Shown here piece after piece: positions 23,730 through 31,721 of a stretch of DNA of 42,501 nucleotides (its first letter is position 1; each line of letters begins with the position of its first letter). The notes under the pieces are model-generated. The model saw only the letters and a program-made list of their open reading frames with translations, was not told the origin of the DNA and searched no databases. This stretch comes from Opitutus sp. (lineage in GTDB: Bacteria; Verrucomicrobiota; Verrucomicrobiia; Opitutales; Opitutaceae), in the NCBI GenBank assembly GCA_025361365.1, contig JANYAM010000041.1, forward strand, positions 1 to 42,501, written 5' to 3'. Position numbers and translations under genes: made by a program.

Positions 23730-25103
23730 ATGCCCGCCTTCTCCCCAGATCAACTCGCCACGTGGACCGGCGGGTCTTGGACCCGCATTCCGGGCGGGGC
23801 GGTCACGGGCTTCAACCAGGACACGCGCACGCTGAGCTCCGGGCAGGTCTTTGTCGCGCTCAAGACCGACAAGCGCGACGGCCACGATTTTCTCCATGAG
23901 GCGCAGCAGGGTGGGGCGGTCGCCGCGCTCGTCGGCCGCGAGGTCACCGGGACGACGCTGCCGCAGCTGGTGACGGCCGACGCGCTCGGCGCCTTCCAGC
24001 GCATTGCCCGTGAACACCGCCGCGAATTCCACGGCACCGTCGTCGGCGTGACCGGCAGCGTGGGCAAGACCTCGACGAAAGACCTGCTCGCGCTGTTGCT
24101 CGGGGGCAGCCCCGACGTCCTCGCCACCGAGGGCAACCTGAACAATCACCTCGGCGTCCCGCTGACACTTACGCGGCTCGACGCCTCGCATCGCGCGGCC
24201 GTCATCGAGGCCGGCATCAGCGGCCCCGGCGAGATGGCCGGCCTGGCCGAGATGATCGAGCCCGACCACAGCGTCGTCACCCTCGTGGCGCCGGCGCACC
24301 TGGAGAAACTCGGCTCGCTCGCCGGCGTGGCGGCCGAGAAAGCCCGGCTCCCCGCGGCCAACCGCGCCGGCGGTCTCGCCGTGTTTCCGATTTCCTGCTG
24401 GGCCCACGAGCCGTTCCGGGCGCTGGCCAACCCGCTCGTGCTGGTGCCGGAGAGCGAGGCGTTGACGAAGGTTTCCGCCCGCACCGTGAAATTCAGCGTG
24501 TTCCATCGCCCCGAGCGCACCGAGGTGACGTTCGAGGGCCGCCGCCGTTTTGTGCTGCGCCGCGTCTCGGCCGGCATGGCGCAGAACGCGGCGCTCGCCC
24601 TGACGCTCGCCTCCGAACTCGGCGTGAAGGATGCGGCTTTGCAAACGCGCCTGGAAAACTGGGCGCCCTCGAAGTGGCGCGGCGAGCTGCGCATGAGCGG
24701 CGAGGCCACGGTGTATTGCGATTTCTACAACGCCAACCCGGCCGCGATGACCGACGCGATCGACGCCTTCAACGGCGCGGTGCCGGCCGACCTGCCGCGG
24801 CTCTATGTGCTCGGCTCGATGGAGGAACTCGGCGTCGAGTCGGCCAACTACCACCGCGCACTCGGGCGGCTGCTGCACCTCCGCCGCGGTGACTTCCTCT
24901 TCGCCCTCGGCAGCCAGGCCGCCGCGCTCCGCGAGGGCCTGCTCGAGAACGGCAACGATCCCGCGTCGGTCGCCGTGATCACCGACGTCGCGCCTGTGCG
25001 GGAGCGCCTCGCCGGGTTCAAGGGCTCCGTTTTCCTGAAAGGCAGCCGCCGTTACCAACTCGAAACCGTGCTCGATCCACACGCTCCCGCCCATGCCCAT
25101 TGA
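23730..25103 (+). CDS. murF: UDP-MurNAc-pentapeptide synthetase MurF
   Basis: This enzyme adds D-Ala-D-Ala to the UDP-MurNAc-tripeptide in the cytosol. It has the Mur ligase layout: an N-terminal substrate domain (NQDTRTLSSGQVFVAL), the ATP loop GVTGSVGKTSTKD, NLNNHLGVPLTL, EAGISGPGEM, AHLEKLGSLAGVAAEKARL with the Lys equivalent, and YCDFYNANPAAM. The length of 457 aa is normal. It follows murE after ten bases, and its end overlaps the first of two small ORFs that lead to mraY. Confidence 0.94.
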   Translation: MPAFSPDQLATWTGGSWTRIPGGAVTGFNQDTRTLSSGQVFVALKTDKRDGHDFLHEAQQGGAVAALVGREVTGTTLPQLVTADALGAFQRIAREHRREFHGTVVGVTGSVGKTSTKDLLALLLGGSPDVLATEGNLNNHLGVPLTLTRLDASHRAAVIEAGISGPGEMAGLAEMIEPDHSVVTLVAPAHLEKLGSLAGVAAEKARLPAANRAGGLAVFPISCWAHEPFRALANPLVLVPESEALTKVSARTVKFSVFHRPERTEVTFEGRRRFVLRRVSAGMAQNAALALTLASELGVKDAALQTRLENWAPSKWRGELRMSGEATVYCDFYNANPAAMTDAIDAFNGAVPADLPRLYVLGSMEELGVESANYHRALGRLLHLRRGDFLFALGSQAAALREGLLENGNDPASVAVITDVAPVRERLAGFKGSVFLKGSRRYQLETVLDPHAPAHAH

Positions 25104-25296
25104 TTCCACCCTCTCCTCGGCGACCGGTCGTCTGCCTGCCGGGCGTGACGAAGCGTTGCGCCGCTACACCCAGCACCTCGCGGCCATCCAGCTTAAGAAC
25201 AGCCGCTGGTGCGCGCTGTTGTCCCATGGCCGGTCGGCCGTCCGCGGGAACCTGTGGTCGGCCGTCGGCCCGAAAGCCTCGCCCCATGCGCACTAG
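25093..25296 (+). CDS. Small coupled ORF between murF and mraY, 67 aa
   Basis: This ORF starts MPIDSTLSSATGRLPAGRDE, with the ATG inside the last codons of murF (11-base overlap). It ends inside the next small ORF. The middle has a charged helix (ALRRYTQHLAAIQLKNSRW), and no membrane segment is seen. The family is not recognised. Three successive overlaps (murF, this ORF, the next ORF, mraY) are the pattern of translationally coupled genes, which supports real expression. Chance openness in GC-rich DNA is the alternative. Confidence 0.45.
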   Translation: MPIDSTLSSATGRLPAGRDEALRRYTQHLAAIQLKNSRWCALLSHGRSAVRGNLWSAVGPKASPHAH

Positions 25297-25480
25297 TTTC
25301 AGCCCCACCTCCGCGGCCGCCCGACTCCTGGCCGCCCGCCCGGCACCGGCCAAGACGGACACCGGCTCCACGCCGCCCTTCGAGCCGCGCTGGTGCGAAT
25401 GGCCGCGGCGCACGCCGGCCCCGCGCCCGCGCGCGGGCATCTGGCAGACCCTGCAGCAGATCCAAGCCCGCCATGCTTAG
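25286..25480 (+). CDS. Small coupled ORF directly before mraY, 64 aa
   Basis: This ORF begins MRTSFSPTSAAARLLAARPA and is rich in Arg, Pro and Ala, with a Trp pair region (EPRWCEWPRR). It ends IWQTLQQIQARHA, possibly a short helix. It overlaps the preceding small ORF by 11 bases and the mraY start by eight (ATG at 25473, this stop at 25478-25480). No family is recognised. The overlaps suggest coupling to mraY translation, and a role in coordinating the MurF-to-MraY step is only speculation. Confidence 0.42.
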   Translation: MRTSFSPTSAAARLLAARPAPAKTDTGSTPPFEPRWCEWPRRTPAPRPRAGIWQTLQQIQARHA

Positions 25481-26588
25481 TTATCTCGCCAATTACGCGC
25501 ACGTTTGGGGACCGCTGCGACTCTTTGCGTCGCACTTGTTCCGCGCCGTCATGGCGACGGGCACGGCGTTGGTGATCGGTTTCCTCGTCGGCCCGTGGCT
25601 CATCGGCCGCTTCCGCGCGCTGAAGTTCGGCCACGGCTACATTGACGAGCGCACCGGCGCGCTGGGCGCGACCTATTTCGACAAGAAGCACACGCCGACG
25701 ATGGGCGGGCTGATTATTTTTATCGCCGTGTTTGGCAGCACCGTGCTCTGGGCCGAGCCCAATGTCTGGACCGTCGTCGCGCTCTTTGTCTACACCGCCC
25801 TGACGGTGCCGGGCTGGCGCGACGACTACCTGAAGGTCGTCCACAAGAACAAGGACGGCATCAAGTCCTGGGAAAAGATTGCCTGGCAGTCGATGGCCAC
25901 GCTGGTCGCGCTCGGCATGCTGTTGTGGCACCCGGCGAGCAAGACGAAGATTCTCGAGCTGTGGGTCCCGTTCTTAAAGACCGCGCTCATCCCCGCCATG
26001 CCTTGGTGGCTGCTGCTCGTGCTACTCTATCTTTGGATTGTCGGCTTCAGCAACGCCATCAACCTGACCGACGGCCTCGACGGCCTCGCCACGGGTTGCA
26101 CCATCACCGTGGCGCTGGTGTTCGGCATCATGGCCTACGTCGCGGATAACAGCATCGCCGCGCAATACCTGCTCATCAGCTACGTGCCCGGCACGAGCGA
26201 ACTCACGGTCATTTGCGGGGCGTTGATCGGCGCCTGCATGGCCTTCCTCTGGTTCAACTCGCACCCGGCCGAGGTGTTCATGGGCGACACCGGCTCGCTG
26301 GCGCTCGGCGGGCTCATCGGCGTCATGGCCTTCATGATCCACCAGCCGTTCACCTTGGTGATCGTCGGCGGGGTCTTCGTGCTGGAGGCCCTCTCCGTTA
26401 TTTTTCAGGTCAGCTGGTTCAAGTGGACGAAGCGGCGCACCGGCACGGGCCGGCGGCTCTTCCTTATGGCGCCGATCCACCACCATTTCCAGAAGCGCGG
26501 CTGGCCGGAGACAAAGGTCGTCCTGCGCTTCTGGATCCTCTCGCTCGGCTGCGCCCTGGCCGGCCTGGCGACACTCAAGCTTCGCTGA
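25473..26588 (+). CDS. mraY: Phospho-MurNAc-pentapeptide translocase MraY
   Basis: This integral membrane enzyme transfers phospho-MurNAc-pentapeptide to undecaprenyl phosphate to make lipid I. About ten hydrophobic helices are seen. Signature motifs are KKHTPTMGGL, GWRDDYLK with the Asp pair, NAINLTDGLDGLA, PAEVFMGDTGSLALGG and MAPIHHHFQKRGW. The 371-aa length is typical. The Arg in GWRDDYLK is slightly unusual, since most homologues have a hydrophobic residue there. The gene is translationally overlapped by the preceding small ORF. murD, the usual next gene, is absent. Confidence 0.96.
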   Translation: MLSYLANYAHVWGPLRLFASHLFRAVMATGTALVIGFLVGPWLIGRFRALKFGHGYIDERTGALGATYFDKKHTPTMGGLIIFIAVFGSTVLWAEPNVWTVVALFVYTALTVPGWRDDYLKVVHKNKDGIKSWEKIAWQSMATLVALGMLLWHPASKTKILELWVPFLKTALIPAMPWWLLLVLLYLWIVGFSNAINLTDGLDGLATGCTITVALVFGIMAYVADNSIAAQYLLISYVPGTSELTVICGALIGACMAFLWFNSHPAEVFMGDTGSLALGGLIGVMAFMIHQPFTLVIVGGVFVLEALSVIFQVSWFKWTKRRTGTGRRLFLMAPIHHHFQKRGWPETKVVLRFWILSLGCALAGLATLKLR

Positions 26589-26630
26589 TTTTCCCTCCCT
26601 CCCAACTCAACTCCTCAACTCCCTCCCACC

Positions 26631-26768
26631 ATGCTGGATGATCCCGCTGAACAACCCTTGCCCATCGTCACCGACACCCGCCTGGCTTTCGCGCCCGGCA
26701 CCCTGATCGCCGTCGGCGTCTGGGCCTGCGCCTTCGCCGCCTTTGTTGTGCTCGGGCTGCAGCCCTGA
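26631..26768 (+). CDS. Small single-helix membrane protein, 45 aa
   Basis: This ORF is open from ATG 26631. The N-terminal half is acidic and soluble (MLDDPAEQPLPIVTDTR), and the second half is a single hydrophobic helix (APGTLIAVGVWACAFAAFVV) ending LGLQP. The layout is that of a small bitopic or tail-anchored envelope protein. It lies 42 bases after mraY and 12 before the next small ORF, at the place where murD is commonly found. The family is not recognised. Clean soluble/membrane partition supports it being real. Confidence 0.5.
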   Translation: MLDDPAEQPLPIVTDTRLAFAPGTLIAVGVWACAFAAFVVLGLQP

Positions 26769-26780
26769 TCCCCCCGTCTC

Positions 26781-26963
26781 ATGCCCATCGACTACAACTT
26801 CGAGGCCACGCCCAGTTTCCGCGACGTCACCCGCACCAGCCTCATCCTGCTGCGGCAGCCGATCGTTCGCTCCCTTTCCAAGCTGCGCCGCCTCCGGAAG
26901 GGGCAGGCGGTCCCTGAGGGTCCGCTCGTGCGCACCGCCAAGACTTTCGCAGGAGTTCGCTGA
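26781..26963 (+). CDS. Small basic protein, 60 aa
   Basis: This ORF begins MPIDYNFEATPSFRDVTRTS and has a basic helical middle (LILLRQPIVRSLSKLRRLRK) that could be an amphipathic membrane-binding helix. It ends near KTFAGVR. Its stop codon lies within the left arm of the inverted repeat at 26955-27016. It follows the 45-aa membrane ORF by 12 bases on the same strand. The start (MPID) resembles that of the ORF at 25093, though this may be chance. The family is not recognised. Confidence 0.45.
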   Translation: MPIDYNFEATPSFRDVTRTSLILLRQPIVRSLSKLRRLRKGQAVPEGPLVRTAKTFAGVR

Positions 26964-27016
26964 CAGGTTCTTTATACTATCAATCGGAACCTTACCTAAA
27001 TTTGCTGTCAGCGAAC
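26955..27016. repeat. Nested inverted repeat around an AT-rich core
   Basis: gttcgctgacag (26955-26966) pairs perfectly with ctgtcagcgaac (27005-27016). Inside, aggttc (26965-26970) pairs with gaacct (26987-26992), in competition with the end of the outer stem. The 38-base core is strikingly AT-rich and includes tatact. It could be an attenuator, a processing site, a protein-binding site or the scar of a small mobile element. It overlaps the end of the 60-aa ORF. Confidence 0.7.
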
Positions 27017-27031
27017 ACCTGCTCTTCTTTC

Positions 27032-27253
27032 ATGCCGATCACCCACGACACCTATCTTTCCGCGACGTTGGCGCACCTTTGGGGCGCCCCGAGCGCCGAC
27101 CAAGGGAAGCTGTCTGCGTGGAATGGTCCGCGTCATGATCAGTCAAGCCACCGGGCCACACCACCCACGCCGGCCGGCATCGCCTTCACCGGTCAGCCAG
27201 CCGGCACCGGGGTGGGGCGACAGACTTTCAAACCCATGGGGGAAAAGCTGTGA
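27032..27253 (+). CDS. Doubtful small ORF before the LysM gene, 73 aa
   Basis: An ATG just after the inverted repeat opens a 73-codon frame that starts MPITHDTYLSATLAHLWGAP and becomes low-complexity (Pro, Thr, Gly). There is no ribosome site and no recognised family. The region 26964-27306 holds nothing else I can identify except the inverted repeat and, near 27235-27275, a weak hairpin followed by T. It is listed so that the gap is accounted for. Confidence 0.28.
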   Translation: MPITHDTYLSATLAHLWGAPSADQGKLSAWNGPRHDQSSHRATPPTPAGIAFTGQPAGTGVGRQTFKPMGEKL

Positions 27254-27306
27254 ATAACTCCCATTTTTAGATAGCAAATCTCCCACCTCAGCCCTCATAT
27301 ATCGCC

Positions 27307-28236
27307 ATGAAAATCCTCCAGATCTTCGGAGCAGTCGTCGCCGTGCACCTGCTTGCGTTTATCTTCATTTTTGCCAGCCCTGGCTGCCAGTCCGGCCCGC
27401 GCAACATTCCCACGCCCGACGCCACCGTGCCCACCGGCGGCACGGCCGAACCCGTGACGTTCACCCCCGCGGCCCCGCAGCCCGTTGACTTGGGCACCGG
27501 CTCGGTCGGCTACAATCCCGCTTCGCCCGCCGGCCACGCCGCGCCGACGCGCCCGGGTTCCGCCAACGCCGTCGCGATCACGCCCGCCAAGGCCACCGCC
27601 GAGGTTGCGCCCGTCAGCACCTACACGGTGGGCAAAGGGGACAGCCTCTGGACCATCGCGAAGAAGAATCACCTGTCCGTCTCCGAACTGGCCAAGGCCA
27701 ACAACCTGCCCGTTGGCGCCGCGTTGCAGCCGGGCAAGAAGCTCATCATCCCGGGCAAAATCGGCGCCGCTCCCGCACCGGCTCCGGTCGCGGCGGGGGA
27801 CAAGCCGCACGATCTCGGCACGCTCACCCAGGCCACGCCCGCCACGGCCAAGCCCGCGGGCGGCGAGAAACACACCGTGGCCGTCGGCGAGAGCCTCGGC
27901 GTCATCGCGCGCAAATACGGCATCACCCTCGGCGAGCTCGCTGCGGCCAACAACATCACCGATCCCTCCAAGGTCCGCGCCGGCCAGACACTCATCATCC
28001 CCGGCGGCAAGGGCACCGGCGCGAAGGCCGCGACCTCCACCTCGACGACCGCCAAGGGTGGCACGACGAAGGCGGCGGCCCCCGAGACCGCGCCGGTCAC
28101 GCCGGCCGCGACGCCGCATTTTGAAATCGCCCCGCCGCCGCCCGGCCAGGATCTCGATTCGGGTCTGAAGAACGCCAGCACCGAGGTGCCGACGATCAAG
28201 GTGGAAGACGCCAAGCCCACGCCGCCGAAGAACTAA
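27307..28236 (+). CDS. Exported protein with two LysM domains
   Basis: The N-terminal hydrophobic segment (about 5-24) ends in FASPGC. Cys27 could be a lipoprotein acylation site, but SPG before Cys is a poor lipobox, so secretion by a normal signal peptide or an N-terminal anchor is also possible. Two LysM modules follow, at 105-149 (YTVGKGDSLWTIAKKN to KLIIPG) and 188-232 (HTVAVGESLGVIARKYG to TLIIPG), separated and followed by Ala/Pro/Thr-rich linkers. LysM binds GlcNAc-containing glycans, so this is likely a peptidoglycan-binding envelope protein. No catalytic domain is present. Its place in the dcw cluster before ftsW suggests a role at the septum. Confidence 0.85.
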   Translation: MKILQIFGAVVAVHLLAFIFIFASPGCQSGPRNIPTPDATVPTGGTAEPVTFTPAAPQPVDLGTGSVGYNPASPAGHAAPTRPGSANAVAITPAKATAEVAPVSTYTVGKGDSLWTIAKKNHLSVSELAKANNLPVGAALQPGKKLIIPGKIGAAPAPAPVAAGDKPHDLGTLTQATPATAKPAGGEKHTVAVGESLGVIARKYGITLGELAAANNITDPSKVRAGQTLIIPGGKGTGAKAATSTSTTAKGGTTKAAAPETAPVTPAATPHFEIAPPPPGQDLDSGLKNASTEVPTIKVEDAKPTPPKN

Positions 28237-29407: not shown

Positions 29408-29515
29408 GAAATCCCAAAGGCCAGACGCCAATTTCCAAACAAACTCCCAATGTCGGAGGTTTGTCGGGAATTCGGCCCTTTGTTTGGCGTTTGAGATTTG
29501 GCGTTTGGAGTTTTC
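29408..29515. repeat. CCAAA/TTTGG-rich inverted repeat between ftsW and murG
   Basis: The left half has aaatcccaaaggcc, acgccaatttccaaac and aaactccc; the right half has gtttggcgtttgagattt and ggcgtttggagttt, which are roughly complementary. It fills almost the whole 127-base gap. It resembles the element at 5340-5409 in word content and differs from the GC-rich flanks. Confidence 0.65.
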
Positions 29516-29530
29516 CACGGAGGTGGGTTC

Positions 29531-30661
29531 ATGAGCCGGTTCATCATCGCCTGCGGCGGCACGGGCGGCCACCTCTCGCCGGGCATCGCGCTGGCCGAGG
29601 CGCTGATGGCGCGCGGCCACACCGTCACGCTCTTCATCAGCCACAAGAAGGTGGACACCCGCCTGGTCGAGAAATACCCGCACCTGCCCGCCGAGCGCGT
29701 GCCGAGCGCGCCGTTCGGCTGGCGGCCTGACGTGCACCTGCGGTTTCACTGGAAACAGACGCAGGGCCTGCTCTTCAGCCTGCGCTTCATGCGTGCGACC
29801 CGGCCGGACGCCATCATCGGTTTCGGGGGCTTCACCAACGCCGGCGTGGTCCTGGCGGGCCGCTTGCTTGGCATCTCGGTCGCCTTGCACGAGGCCAACC
29901 GCGTGCCCGGCCTCGCCATCCGCGTGCTCTCGCGCTTCGCCGCCCGCCTTTATCTTCCACCGGGCGTCCGCCTCCCGGGCATACGCGGGGTTGTGGTCCG
30001 TCACACCGGCCTGCCGGTGCGCAATGAGATCACCCGCCTGCCGCGCGACGAGGCTCGCGGCCGGCTCCGCCTGGATCCCGCGCAGAAGCTGCTGGTGGTA
30101 CTCGGCGGCAGCCAGGGCTCCGGCAACCTGAACCAGTGGGCGGAGCAAAACCTCGCGACGCTCGCGCACGAGGGCGTCCAGGTTTACTGCGTCACCGGCC
30201 TCGGCAAGGGCAGCGAGGGCGTGCGCGAGTTGCACGGCAAGAGCGGCCAGGTGGTGCGCAGCACGTTCGTGGCTTTTTCGGACCGCGTGGGCGTGCTGAT
30301 GTCCGCCGCCGACCTCGTGCTCAGTCGCGCCGGCGCCGGCACGCTGGCCGAGCTGGTGCGCTGCGAGACGCCGGCCGTCCTGATTCCCTATCCGCACGCC
30401 GCCGACAACCACCAGTGGGCCAACGCCTCGTATTTCGAGCAGCAGGGCGGCGGCGTGGTGATCGCCGACCATGCGGTGGCGGGCCTGCACCAGGAAGTGC
30501 TCGATGTCATCTTCAACGACTGGCTGCTGAACAAATTCCGCCTGAACCTGCACCGCATGTCGCAGGAGAACAGCATCGACACCATCGTGCATGACCTGGA
30601 GAGCCTCGCGTCGGGCACGCCGCCGCCGGGCCACCTGCGGCCGGTGCCTTCCGCCACATGA
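29531..30661 (+). CDS. murG: UDP-GlcNAc:lipid I GlcNAc transferase MurG
   Basis: This enzyme makes lipid II from lipid I at the inner face of the membrane. The GT-B fold is visible: the N-terminal glycine loop CGGTGGHLSPGIALAEAL, GFGGFTNAGVVLAGRL with LHEANRVPG, the second-domain start VVLGGSQGSGNLN, and the UDP-GlcNAc binding segment SRAGAGTLAEL followed by IPYPHAADNHQWANA. The length of 376 aa is typical. The start ATG 29531 has ggagg seven bases upstream, a rare clear ribosome site here. murC usually follows murG in this cluster but is absent. Confidence 0.95.
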   Translation: MSRFIIACGGTGGHLSPGIALAEALMARGHTVTLFISHKKVDTRLVEKYPHLPAERVPSAPFGWRPDVHLRFHWKQTQGLLFSLRFMRATRPDAIIGFGGFTNAGVVLAGRLLGISVALHEANRVPGLAIRVLSRFAARLYLPPGVRLPGIRGVVVRHTGLPVRNEITRLPRDEARGRLRLDPAQKLLVVLGGSQGSGNLNQWAEQNLATLAHEGVQVYCVTGLGKGSEGVRELHGKSGQVVRSTFVAFSDRVGVLMSAADLVLSRAGAGTLAELVRCETPAVLIPYPHAADNHQWANASYFEQQGGGVVIADHAVAGLHQEVLDVIFNDWLLNKFRLNLHRMSQENSIDTIVHDLESLASGTPPPGHLRPVPSAT

Positions 30662-30680
30662 ATGCCATCCACTACTTCTT

Positions 30681-30734
30681 TGTAGGGTCGGCGCTAGTCG
30701 CCGGACCGGTCCGCCGGCAAGCGGCGACCCTACA
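30681..30734. repeat. Two-hairpin palindromic repeat between murG and murB
   Basis: Outer arms tgtagggtcg (30681-30690) and cgaccctaca (30725-30734) enclose two hairpins, cggcg/cgccg around ctagt and cgccg/cggcg around gcaag. It has the same design as the element at 38521-38570 and fills most of the 82-base gap. Confidence 0.8.
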
Positions 30735-30743
30735 TTCCAGCAG

Positions 30744-31721
30744 ATGAGCGCCTTCGCCAAAGTCCCGGACCTGGAGCTGCGCGAGGCCGCGTGGAATGAA
30801 TTCGTCGCGGCCGTCCGCCCGCTGCTGACGCCGGCGACCAAGTTCACCGAGCGCGAGGTGCTCGGCCCGAAGACGACGATGCGCGTCGGCGGCCCCGCGC
30901 GGGTCTACGCCGAGCCGGCCAGCGCCGCCGAATTACGCCACCTGCTCGTCGGGGCGCACCGCCGCGGTCTGCCGGTGCTGATGCTCGGGCGCGGCTCCAA
31001 TCTCGTGATTCCCGACGCCGGCGTCGACGGACTCGTCCTCAACCTGGCGCACGAACACTGGCAGAGATTCGAGCCGCAGCCGGACGGTCGGATCCGCGTG
31101 GGCGCCGGGCTGCGGTTGAAAAACCTCTGCGGCCTCGCCACGAAGGCCGGCCTCAAAGGCTTTGAGTTTCTCGAGGGCATCCCGGGCAACGTCGGCGGCG
31201 CCCTGCGCATGAATGCCGGCGCCATGGGCGGCTGGATGTTCGATGTTGTCGCGGAAGTTGAAGTGATGAGCTTTGCCGGCGAACTGCGCGTCCTGCAGCG
31301 AAGCGAGATGCAAGTTGATTACCGGCACTGCGCGGAGTTGCACGAGGCCATCGCGCTTGGCGCCGTGCTGAAACCGGCCGCGAGCGCCGAGGCGAACGAC
31401 ATCCGCCGGCAGATCGACGTCTACCAGAAGAAGCGCGTCGAGTCCCAGCCGCGCGAGCCGAGCGCCGGTTGCATCTTCAAGAACCCGCCGGGCAACTCCG
31501 CCGGCCGGCTCATCGACGAGGCCGGGCTCAAGGGCGCGCGGGTGGGGGACGCCGAGGTCTCGGCCGTGCACGCCAATTTCATTGTCAACCGCGGCCACGC
31601 GACCAGCGCCGACATCATCGGCCTGGTCCGCCAGATCCGCGCCCGGGTGAAGAGCGCGAAAGGCGTCGACCTGGAACCCGAGGTGCTGCTCTACGGGCAG
31701 GAATGGAAGGACGTATTATGA
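30744..31721 (+). CDS. murB: UDP-N-acetylenolpyruvoylglucosamine reductase MurB
   Basis: This FAD/NADPH enzyme reduces enolpyruvyl-UDP-GlcNAc to UDP-MurNAc. The FAD-binding region shows VGGPARVYAEP, LMLGRGSNLVIPD and FEFLEGIPGNVGGALRMNAG. The substrate domain has the catalytic-loop region PSAGCIFKNP and the C-terminal VHANFIVNRG and LEPEVLLYG. Cys stands where the E. coli enzyme has the proton-donor Ser229. The ATG at 30744 gives 325 aa. The stop overlaps the ddl start (ATGA). Confidence 0.93.
   Translation: MSAFAKVPDLELREAAWNEFVAAVRPLLTPATKFTEREVLGPKTTMRVGGPARVYAEPASAAELRHLLVGAHRRGLPVLMLGRGSNLVIPDAGVDGLVLNLAHEHWQRFEPQPDGRIRVGAGLRLKNLCGLATKAGLKGFEFLEGIPGNVGGALRMNAGAMGGWMFDVVAEVEVMSFAGELRVLQRSEMQVDYRHCAELHEAIALGAVLKPAASAEANDIRRQIDVYQKKRVESQPREPSAGCIFKNPPGNSAGRLIDEAGLKGARVGDAEVSAVHANFIVNRGHATSADIIGLVRQIRARVKSAKGVDLEPEVLLYGQEWKDVL

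Follow-up and report, generated by a model that had tools for sequence, protein, structure and literature searches.

What are four small open reading frames (ORFs) doing around mraY in the cell wall gene cluster of a freshwater Opitutus species: do they encode regulators, or do they serve the translation of their neighbors? We addressed this question in a stretch of 42,501 nucleotides (nt) (hereafter the window; GenBank assembly GCA_025361365.1, contig JANYAM010000041.1, positions 1 to 42,501 of the forward strand), which is contig 232 of a draft genome (G000) of 3.56 Mb in 297 contigs that is 99.7% complete. Sequence comparison places the window in Opitutaceae, close to Lacunisphaera, and the named relatives nearest by mraY include Lacunisphaera metagenome-assembled genomes (89 and 87% identity). 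A first-pass annotation had treated the four frames as one set of uncharacterized small proteins, possibly regulators of lipid I synthesis or of the divisome. Our analysis points to a division of the set: orf1 and orf2, between murF and mraY, are probably ribosome-relay frames that preserve the coupling of these two genes, and orf4, accompanied by orf3 in some species, is likely a separate small protein.

The murF-mraY junction

In the window, murF (23730..25103, + strand; TIGR01143, 308.7 bits) contains within its last codons the ATG of orf1 (25093..25296, +; 67 amino acids (aa)), the proposed first relay frame. The proposed second, orf2 (25286..25480, +; 64 aa), ends inside the start of mraY (25473..26588, +; 371 aa from an ATG start; TIGR00445, 327.6 bits), and the 8 nt shared there, ATGCTTAG (25473..25480, +), hold both the mraY start and the orf2 stop. 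These coordinates confirm the earlier placing of all four small frames on the + strand, the strand of the operon, and the description of orf1 and orf2 as joining murF to mraY by stop/start overlaps, which measure 11, 11, and 8 nt. A Shine-Dalgarno-like motif was lacking at 10 of the 11 window starts examined, and a C-rich stretch with CATGC at its end is common to the three window junctions.

For comparison, mraY loci were drawn from 150 family genomes (146 matched, 30 fetched), from genome contigs (66 loci), and from 21 genomes of the genus (20 matched). Removal of duplicates, of loci truncated near the start of mraY, and of those below 60% mraY identity left 71 distinct loci, including the window. 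In 32 of them the murF stop falls within the start of mraY (at +7 or +8), and 21 of these carry ATGCTTAG; the HA-stop ending of MurF then shares its letters with the mraY start. murF stops 2-28 nt upstream of mraY in 14 loci, and two (L029 and L079) fall outside all classes. The remaining 23, in which 40 nt or more separate murF from mraY (the actual gaps are 64-450 nt), are referred to here as gap loci.

We asked how often ATG-started frames, each starting -20 to +10 nt from the previous stop and the last one ending over the mraY start, tile the gap. Close spacing is kept among relatives, with unbroken tiling of the whole stretch between the two genes in 20 of the 23 gap loci. The bridging frames are unlike between lineages: L043 has one of 22 aa, L053 and L033 have frames of 44-45 aa, L049 has one of 103 aa, L016 has one of 115 aa, and the group of the window has two frames. 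Stretches such as LTPPR or SPFDKLRTPSPSRG in some bridging frames (L041, L033, and L053) may be repeat-derived. When each gap was shuffled 1000 times with its dinucleotide composition kept and its flanks left in place, 2.73 of 15 hand-picked representatives were expected to be tiled, against 12 observed (P ~2e-11, a value that is too small, as the rule and the representatives were chosen post hoc and the loci share ancestry). Among the eight representatives whose first ATG lies outside murF, seven are tiled against 0.18 expected. Shuffled gaps tile rarely in most lineages and often (449-715 of 1000) in L087, L021, L044, and L016, in which an ATG is already present inside murF.

All 23 gap loci retain a stop that overlaps the mraY start, as opposed to 7 of the 14 loci in which murF ends 2-28 nt upstream. 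In 19 gap loci mraY codons 2-3 read CTT-AG, and the remaining four have another overlapping stop. CTTAG occurs in none of the 14 short-spacer loci, where no frame has to stop at that place (Fisher's exact test, 5e-7, with related loci not being independent), and five of the seven short-spacer loci without an overlapping stop have CTC. CTT is rare, making up 4.4% of the 3643 Leu codons across the 71 mraY genes. A rare codon thus keeps an out-of-frame stop in place, as would be predicted if ribosomes came to mraY in the frame of that stop.

We infer an ancestor in which the stop of murF lay within the start of mraY (ATGCTTAG), which would have allowed ribosomes completing murF to resume on mraY. 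A later insertion would have separated the two genes by about 370 nt (369 nt in the window). Orf1 and orf2 would span this insertion, each begun on the last codons of the preceding frame and the last one stopping inside the mraY start, and ribosomes would be handed over from murF to orf1, to orf2, and to mraY by termination-reinitiation without Shine-Dalgarno sites. The sequences of the two peptides would be largely dispensable, mattering less than the frames being open, adjacent, and translated. Because coupling of native gene pairs from Escherichia coli and Haloferax is mostly lost at spacings of 20-40 nt (PMC10666635), a gap of 369 nt would be expected to uncouple mraY. Relative to the range of about -8 to +10 used in that study, the orf2/mraY overlap (-8) lies inside, and the murF/orf1 and orf1/orf2 overlaps (-11 each) lie just outside.

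Besides the overstated P value, several points weigh against a relay. The window gap taken alone is not improbable, as 161 of 1000 shuffles of it tile, so that the case rests on the comparison across loci. Three gap loci are untiled: in L044 an orf2-type frame stops 28 nt short of mraY, in L065 the frame starts 48 nt past the murF stop, and in L040 it ends 65 nt short of mraY. The two -11 overlaps are not ideal, given that the review PMC12548453 puts efficient spacings near -4 to +3 and describes larger overlaps as less efficient, with -8 enriched in genomes. Other studies, as cited in PMC10666635, report coupling across long gaps. Finally, the orf2 sequence itself is kept, with a ratio of nonsynonymous to synonymous substitution rates (dN/dS) of 0.20-0.30 and the stretches WCEWPRR and QQIQARHA in most copies, and the peptide may matter.

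Conservation and coding potential of the small frames

Downstream of mraY, orf3 (26631..26768, +; 45 aa) starts 43 nt after the mraY stop, and orf4 (26781..26963, +; 60 aa) starts 12 nt after the orf3 stop. As had been predicted, orf3 has one putative membrane helix, the single hydrophobic stretch at residues 25-43 (mean Kyte-Doolittle value 2.53). Orf1, orf2, and orf4 are all basic, with net charges of +6, +7, and +8, respectively.

Orf4-type frames lie 3' of mraY in 29 of the 71 loci, one of them partial. A profile built from 18 orf4 sequences was searched against 252 family genomes from 49 genera, with at most 25 candidates per genome scored, and matched 33 genomes, 30 of them strongly (E <1e-19) and over nearly the full length. 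The strong matches comprise 20 of the 21 genomes of the genus of the window, nine genomes of genus g40, and one of g47; G156, the only genome of the window's genus without an orf4 match, also gave no mraY. Orf4 is found directly 3' of mraY or of orf3, with murD next in sister genomes, and was beside mraY, on its 3' side, in all 26 strong-match genomes in which mraY could be placed. There is one match per genome among the candidates scored, and eight positions are invariant among the 18 sequences. The notion that orf4 is a remnant of murD was rejected, as the two stand side by side in sister genomes.

We compared the window with its nearest relative, L003, and with L004, L005, and L032. Against L003, dN/dS was 0.09 for mraY, 0.00 for orf4, 0.20 for orf2, 0.33 for orf1, and 0.48 for orf3; against the other three it was 0.18-0.38 for orf4, 0.21-0.30 for orf2, and 0.45-0.63 for orf1, and orf3 reached 0.71 against L004. 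Third codon positions hold a share of 0.54 of the differences in orf4, 0.48 in orf2, and 0.39 in both orf1 and orf3, an excess that is significant in the L003 pair for orf4 (P 0.001) and orf2 (P 0.03) and not for orf1 (0.12) or orf3 (0.28). By these measures orf4 and orf2 are clearly coding, and orf1 and orf3, for which the codon evidence is weak, are only probably so. The first-pass annotation would have failed had the frames shown no conservation and random stop codons in relatives, which is not what we see for orf4 and orf2. Its description of the four frames as uncharacterized also holds, as none belongs to a described Pfam or NCBIfam family above cut-off. No Pfam match was obtained at E up to 0.1 for 18 orf4-type and 12 orf1/orf2-type sequences; NCBIfam gave none for the 12 and, for one of the 18, TIGR02380 at E 0.063. 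Searched singly, only orf1 among the window frames gave a hit, to Pfam IBN_N (E 0.15), below cut-off.

Orf4 is thus under purifying selection and is the best candidate at this locus for an undescribed small protein; orf3, with relatives in 5 of the 70 other loci, is a weaker case, that of a putative one-helix membrane peptide. Of the four frames, orf4 alone behaves like a conserved small gene, and a role for it at MraY or the divisome is a guess from position. Its single match per genome, its constant place beside mraY, its invariant residues, and its low dN/dS against all four relatives speak for a partner or a regulator devoted to MraY or to the divisome. We nonetheless regard such a role as doubtful, as strong matches are confined to 3 of the 49 genera, all within one family, no known family is matched, operon position alone is no proof of interaction, and the AlphaFold model is of low confidence (mean predicted local distance difference test (pLDDT) score 57, two short helices). 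Judging from its position, orf4 would most readily be pictured as a basic helical peptide working on the surface of the membrane, close to the lipid I step, a picture that we hold tentatively.

A profile of orf1 and orf2, run on the 21 genomes of the genus with at most 150 candidates per genome scored, gave 15 strong matches in nine genomes, all beside mraY; orf2-type frames occur in nine genomes and orf1-type frames in six. The match in G154, which by place and score is the same locus as L044, holds an in-frame TGA. No paralogs away from mraY were found at E <0.005 among those candidates. The alignment of orf1 with orf2 is weak (21% in the window), and a single frame in L044 combines features of both. 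In L044 murF joins this orf2-type frame directly, with junction letters nearly those of the window orf1/orf2 junction; this likeness and the shared C-rich, CATGC-ending junctions suggest that orf1 and orf2 may stem from a duplication of the junction.

Could orf1 and orf2, perhaps tandem relatives of each other, instead encode peptides with a function of their own at MraY or MurF, with the coupling a by-product of packing in the operon? The selection on orf2, the WC and C-terminal stretches shared by the frames, their weak alignment, and the composite frame of L044 speak for this. We consider it unlikely, since the frames are present in only 9 of 21 genomes of the genus and different frames occupy the same place elsewhere, orf1 is less constrained (dN/dS 0.33-0.63), and the AlphaFold model of orf2 is of low confidence (predicted template modeling score 0.23). 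Part of the similarity of the N termini (MRT, MPT, and MHI) is imposed by the overlap with the end of murF, HAH-stop. The same distribution leaves unsupported the idea that the frames jointly regulate lipid I synthesis, and the different small frames found at the same place in other lineages point to position and coupling rather than to a specific peptide. None of the tests shows the small frames regulating MraY.

That the frames are chance openings in GC-rich DNA is a very unlikely explanation, already disfavored for orf4 and orf2. Other frames are open too, for example the mraY frame back to 25209, the third-position excess of orf1 and orf3 is weak, and shuffles of the window gap tile at the frequency given above; these are outweighed by the conservation and codon pattern of orf4 and orf2 and by the tiling and the stop kept across lineages. 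Finally, an N-terminal extension of MraY, suggested by the 264 nt open upstream of its ATG in the window (25209-25472, where other frames are open as well), was rejected as highly improbable, because in several relatives a stop closes the frame immediately ahead of the ATG (371-375 aa open for a match of 371 aa) and the mraY start letters are conserved.

Absence of murC and murD

Gene order in the window is murE, murF, orf1, orf2, mraY, orf3, orf4, lysM, ftsW, murG, murB, ddl, ftsQ, and ftsA. The interval between orf4 and lysM (26964..27306, no strand assigned; 343 nt) is where murD sits in sister genomes, which have murD after orf4 and a murCB fusion. In the window genome no protein exceeded the cut-off of the murD model TIGR01087 (best 44.9 bits), and a sister murD used as query (302 bits to TIGR01087, cut-off 212) found only a 44-codon stretch of murE. 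Four proteins of this genome contain Mur_ligase_M (PF08245): murE, murF, an Mpl-type ligase (TIGR01081, 380.2 bits, slightly under the cut-off of 388.7), and FolC (TIGR01499, 267 bits). The positions related to the loss are 26964-27306 and 29498-31721 in the window and G000:C67:4375-5796.

The PF08245 count is also four in G071 (one contig, 100% complete), G093, G037, G160, and G147 (all at least 99% complete) and six in G113, G150, G130, G159, G161, G154, G157, and G158; seven other genomes of the genus (69-94% complete, two to five matches) were left out. G113 carries murCB and murD. Synteny of 12 genomes agrees with this division, six being without murD and having a murB that lacks the murC part, and the other six having both. 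The murC model TIGR01082 stayed below its cut-off (335) throughout the 21 genomes of the genus, full murCB fusions scoring 289-332; in the six genomes without murC and murD it matched only the Mpl-type ligase (220-235), murE, murF, and, in G147, a stretch of FolC. The window genome and its five near-complete congeners thus show neither murC nor murD and retain the Mpl-type ligase, murE, and murF.

Over the 252 family genomes a PF08245 count of six is commonest (about 122 by hand count). A count of four recurs in other genera, for example, in G096, G074, G040, G026, and G066 (all at least 98% complete), where missing murD was checked through the mraY-lysM distance at a few loci. This pattern suggests repeated joint loss of murC and murD in the family. 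No title in our literature search reported such a loss earlier.

Three explanations or markers of the loss were rejected. Orf1 and orf2 are not tied to it, as G161 has orf1, orf2, murC, and murD, and G147 has none of these. Replacement of murD by a Xanthomonas-type MurD2/MurL system found no support: MurD2 is described as MurD-like (PMC8788868), and no further Mur ligase was found, MurL not having been searched for. A gene downstream of mpl common to G000, G071, G093, G037, G160, and G147 also occurs in G161 together with murC and murD (nine neighborhoods compared).

As separate observations, a PF08245 count of four is seen in many members of g40, g26, g27, and g19 and in part of g7. PF01177, the Asp/Glu racemase family that includes glutamate racemase, had no match in 13 of the 21 genomes of the genus, including the window genome and G113. 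One family genome, G056 (92% complete), had no Mur_ligase_M and no mraY match, which may mean that contigs are missing or that the wall pathway has been lost.

Discussion

Huber et al. reportedly described translational coupling at overlapping genes in 2019. Termination-reinitiation at such genes is treated by Huber et al. 2023 (PMC10666635) and in a review (PMC12548453). The junctions described here resemble these systems in their short stop/start overlaps, with 8 nt among the enriched spacings in PMC12548453; they differ in that the coupling of an old gene pair has apparently been rescued across an insertion by lineage-specific small frames. Like mgtQ of Salmonella, which promotes mgtB translation (PMC8092293), orf1 and orf2 are small frames between operon genes. 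MgtQ reportedly acts through ribosome-destabilizing residues and alternative stem-loops, whereas the window frames overlap both neighbors and the three window junctions fold no more stably than shuffled sequences (z 0.22, 1.15, and 0.31). Rfam gave no match within 24900-27400 of the window, and no title in the literature search concerned small frames between murF and mraY.

The locus also resembles the division and cell wall (dcw) clusters of the Verrucomicrobia L. limnophila IG16b and V. spinosum in the order murE-murF-mraY-lysM-ftsW-murG-murB-ftsQ, as in congeners, with ddl and ftsA present in the window; it differs in its four extra small frames and in lacking murD and the murC part of murCB. 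MurB and MurC form one protein in L. limnophila IG16b, from which sacculi were isolated, according to PMC5303756, and PMC12283558 gives a murCB fusion for V. spinosum and calls dcw genes highly conserved in Verrucomicrobiota.

In conclusion, we favor a relay role for orf1 and orf2, and we single out orf4 as the frame worth bench work. If the relay is real, the family offers a natural evolutionary experiment on translational coupling, with one essential gene pair and several insertions; a rare Leu codon retained for the sake of a stop would be its readable signature, and one class of small intergenic frames would be explained as spacers and not regulators. The absence of murC and murD, a by-product of this work, may matter more than the small frames, as it makes the source of UDP-MurNAc-peptides a testable question. 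It is conceivable, if somewhat short of an even chance, that all of these hold together in the family: that insertions between essential operon genes are tolerated chiefly where a new small frame spans them, that relay frames, favored for openness and overlap and not for their peptides, arise repeatedly between murF and mraY, that orf4 is a new MraY-linked protein of this operon, and that the operon has lost murC and murD, with precursor synthesis then having to start through Mpl.

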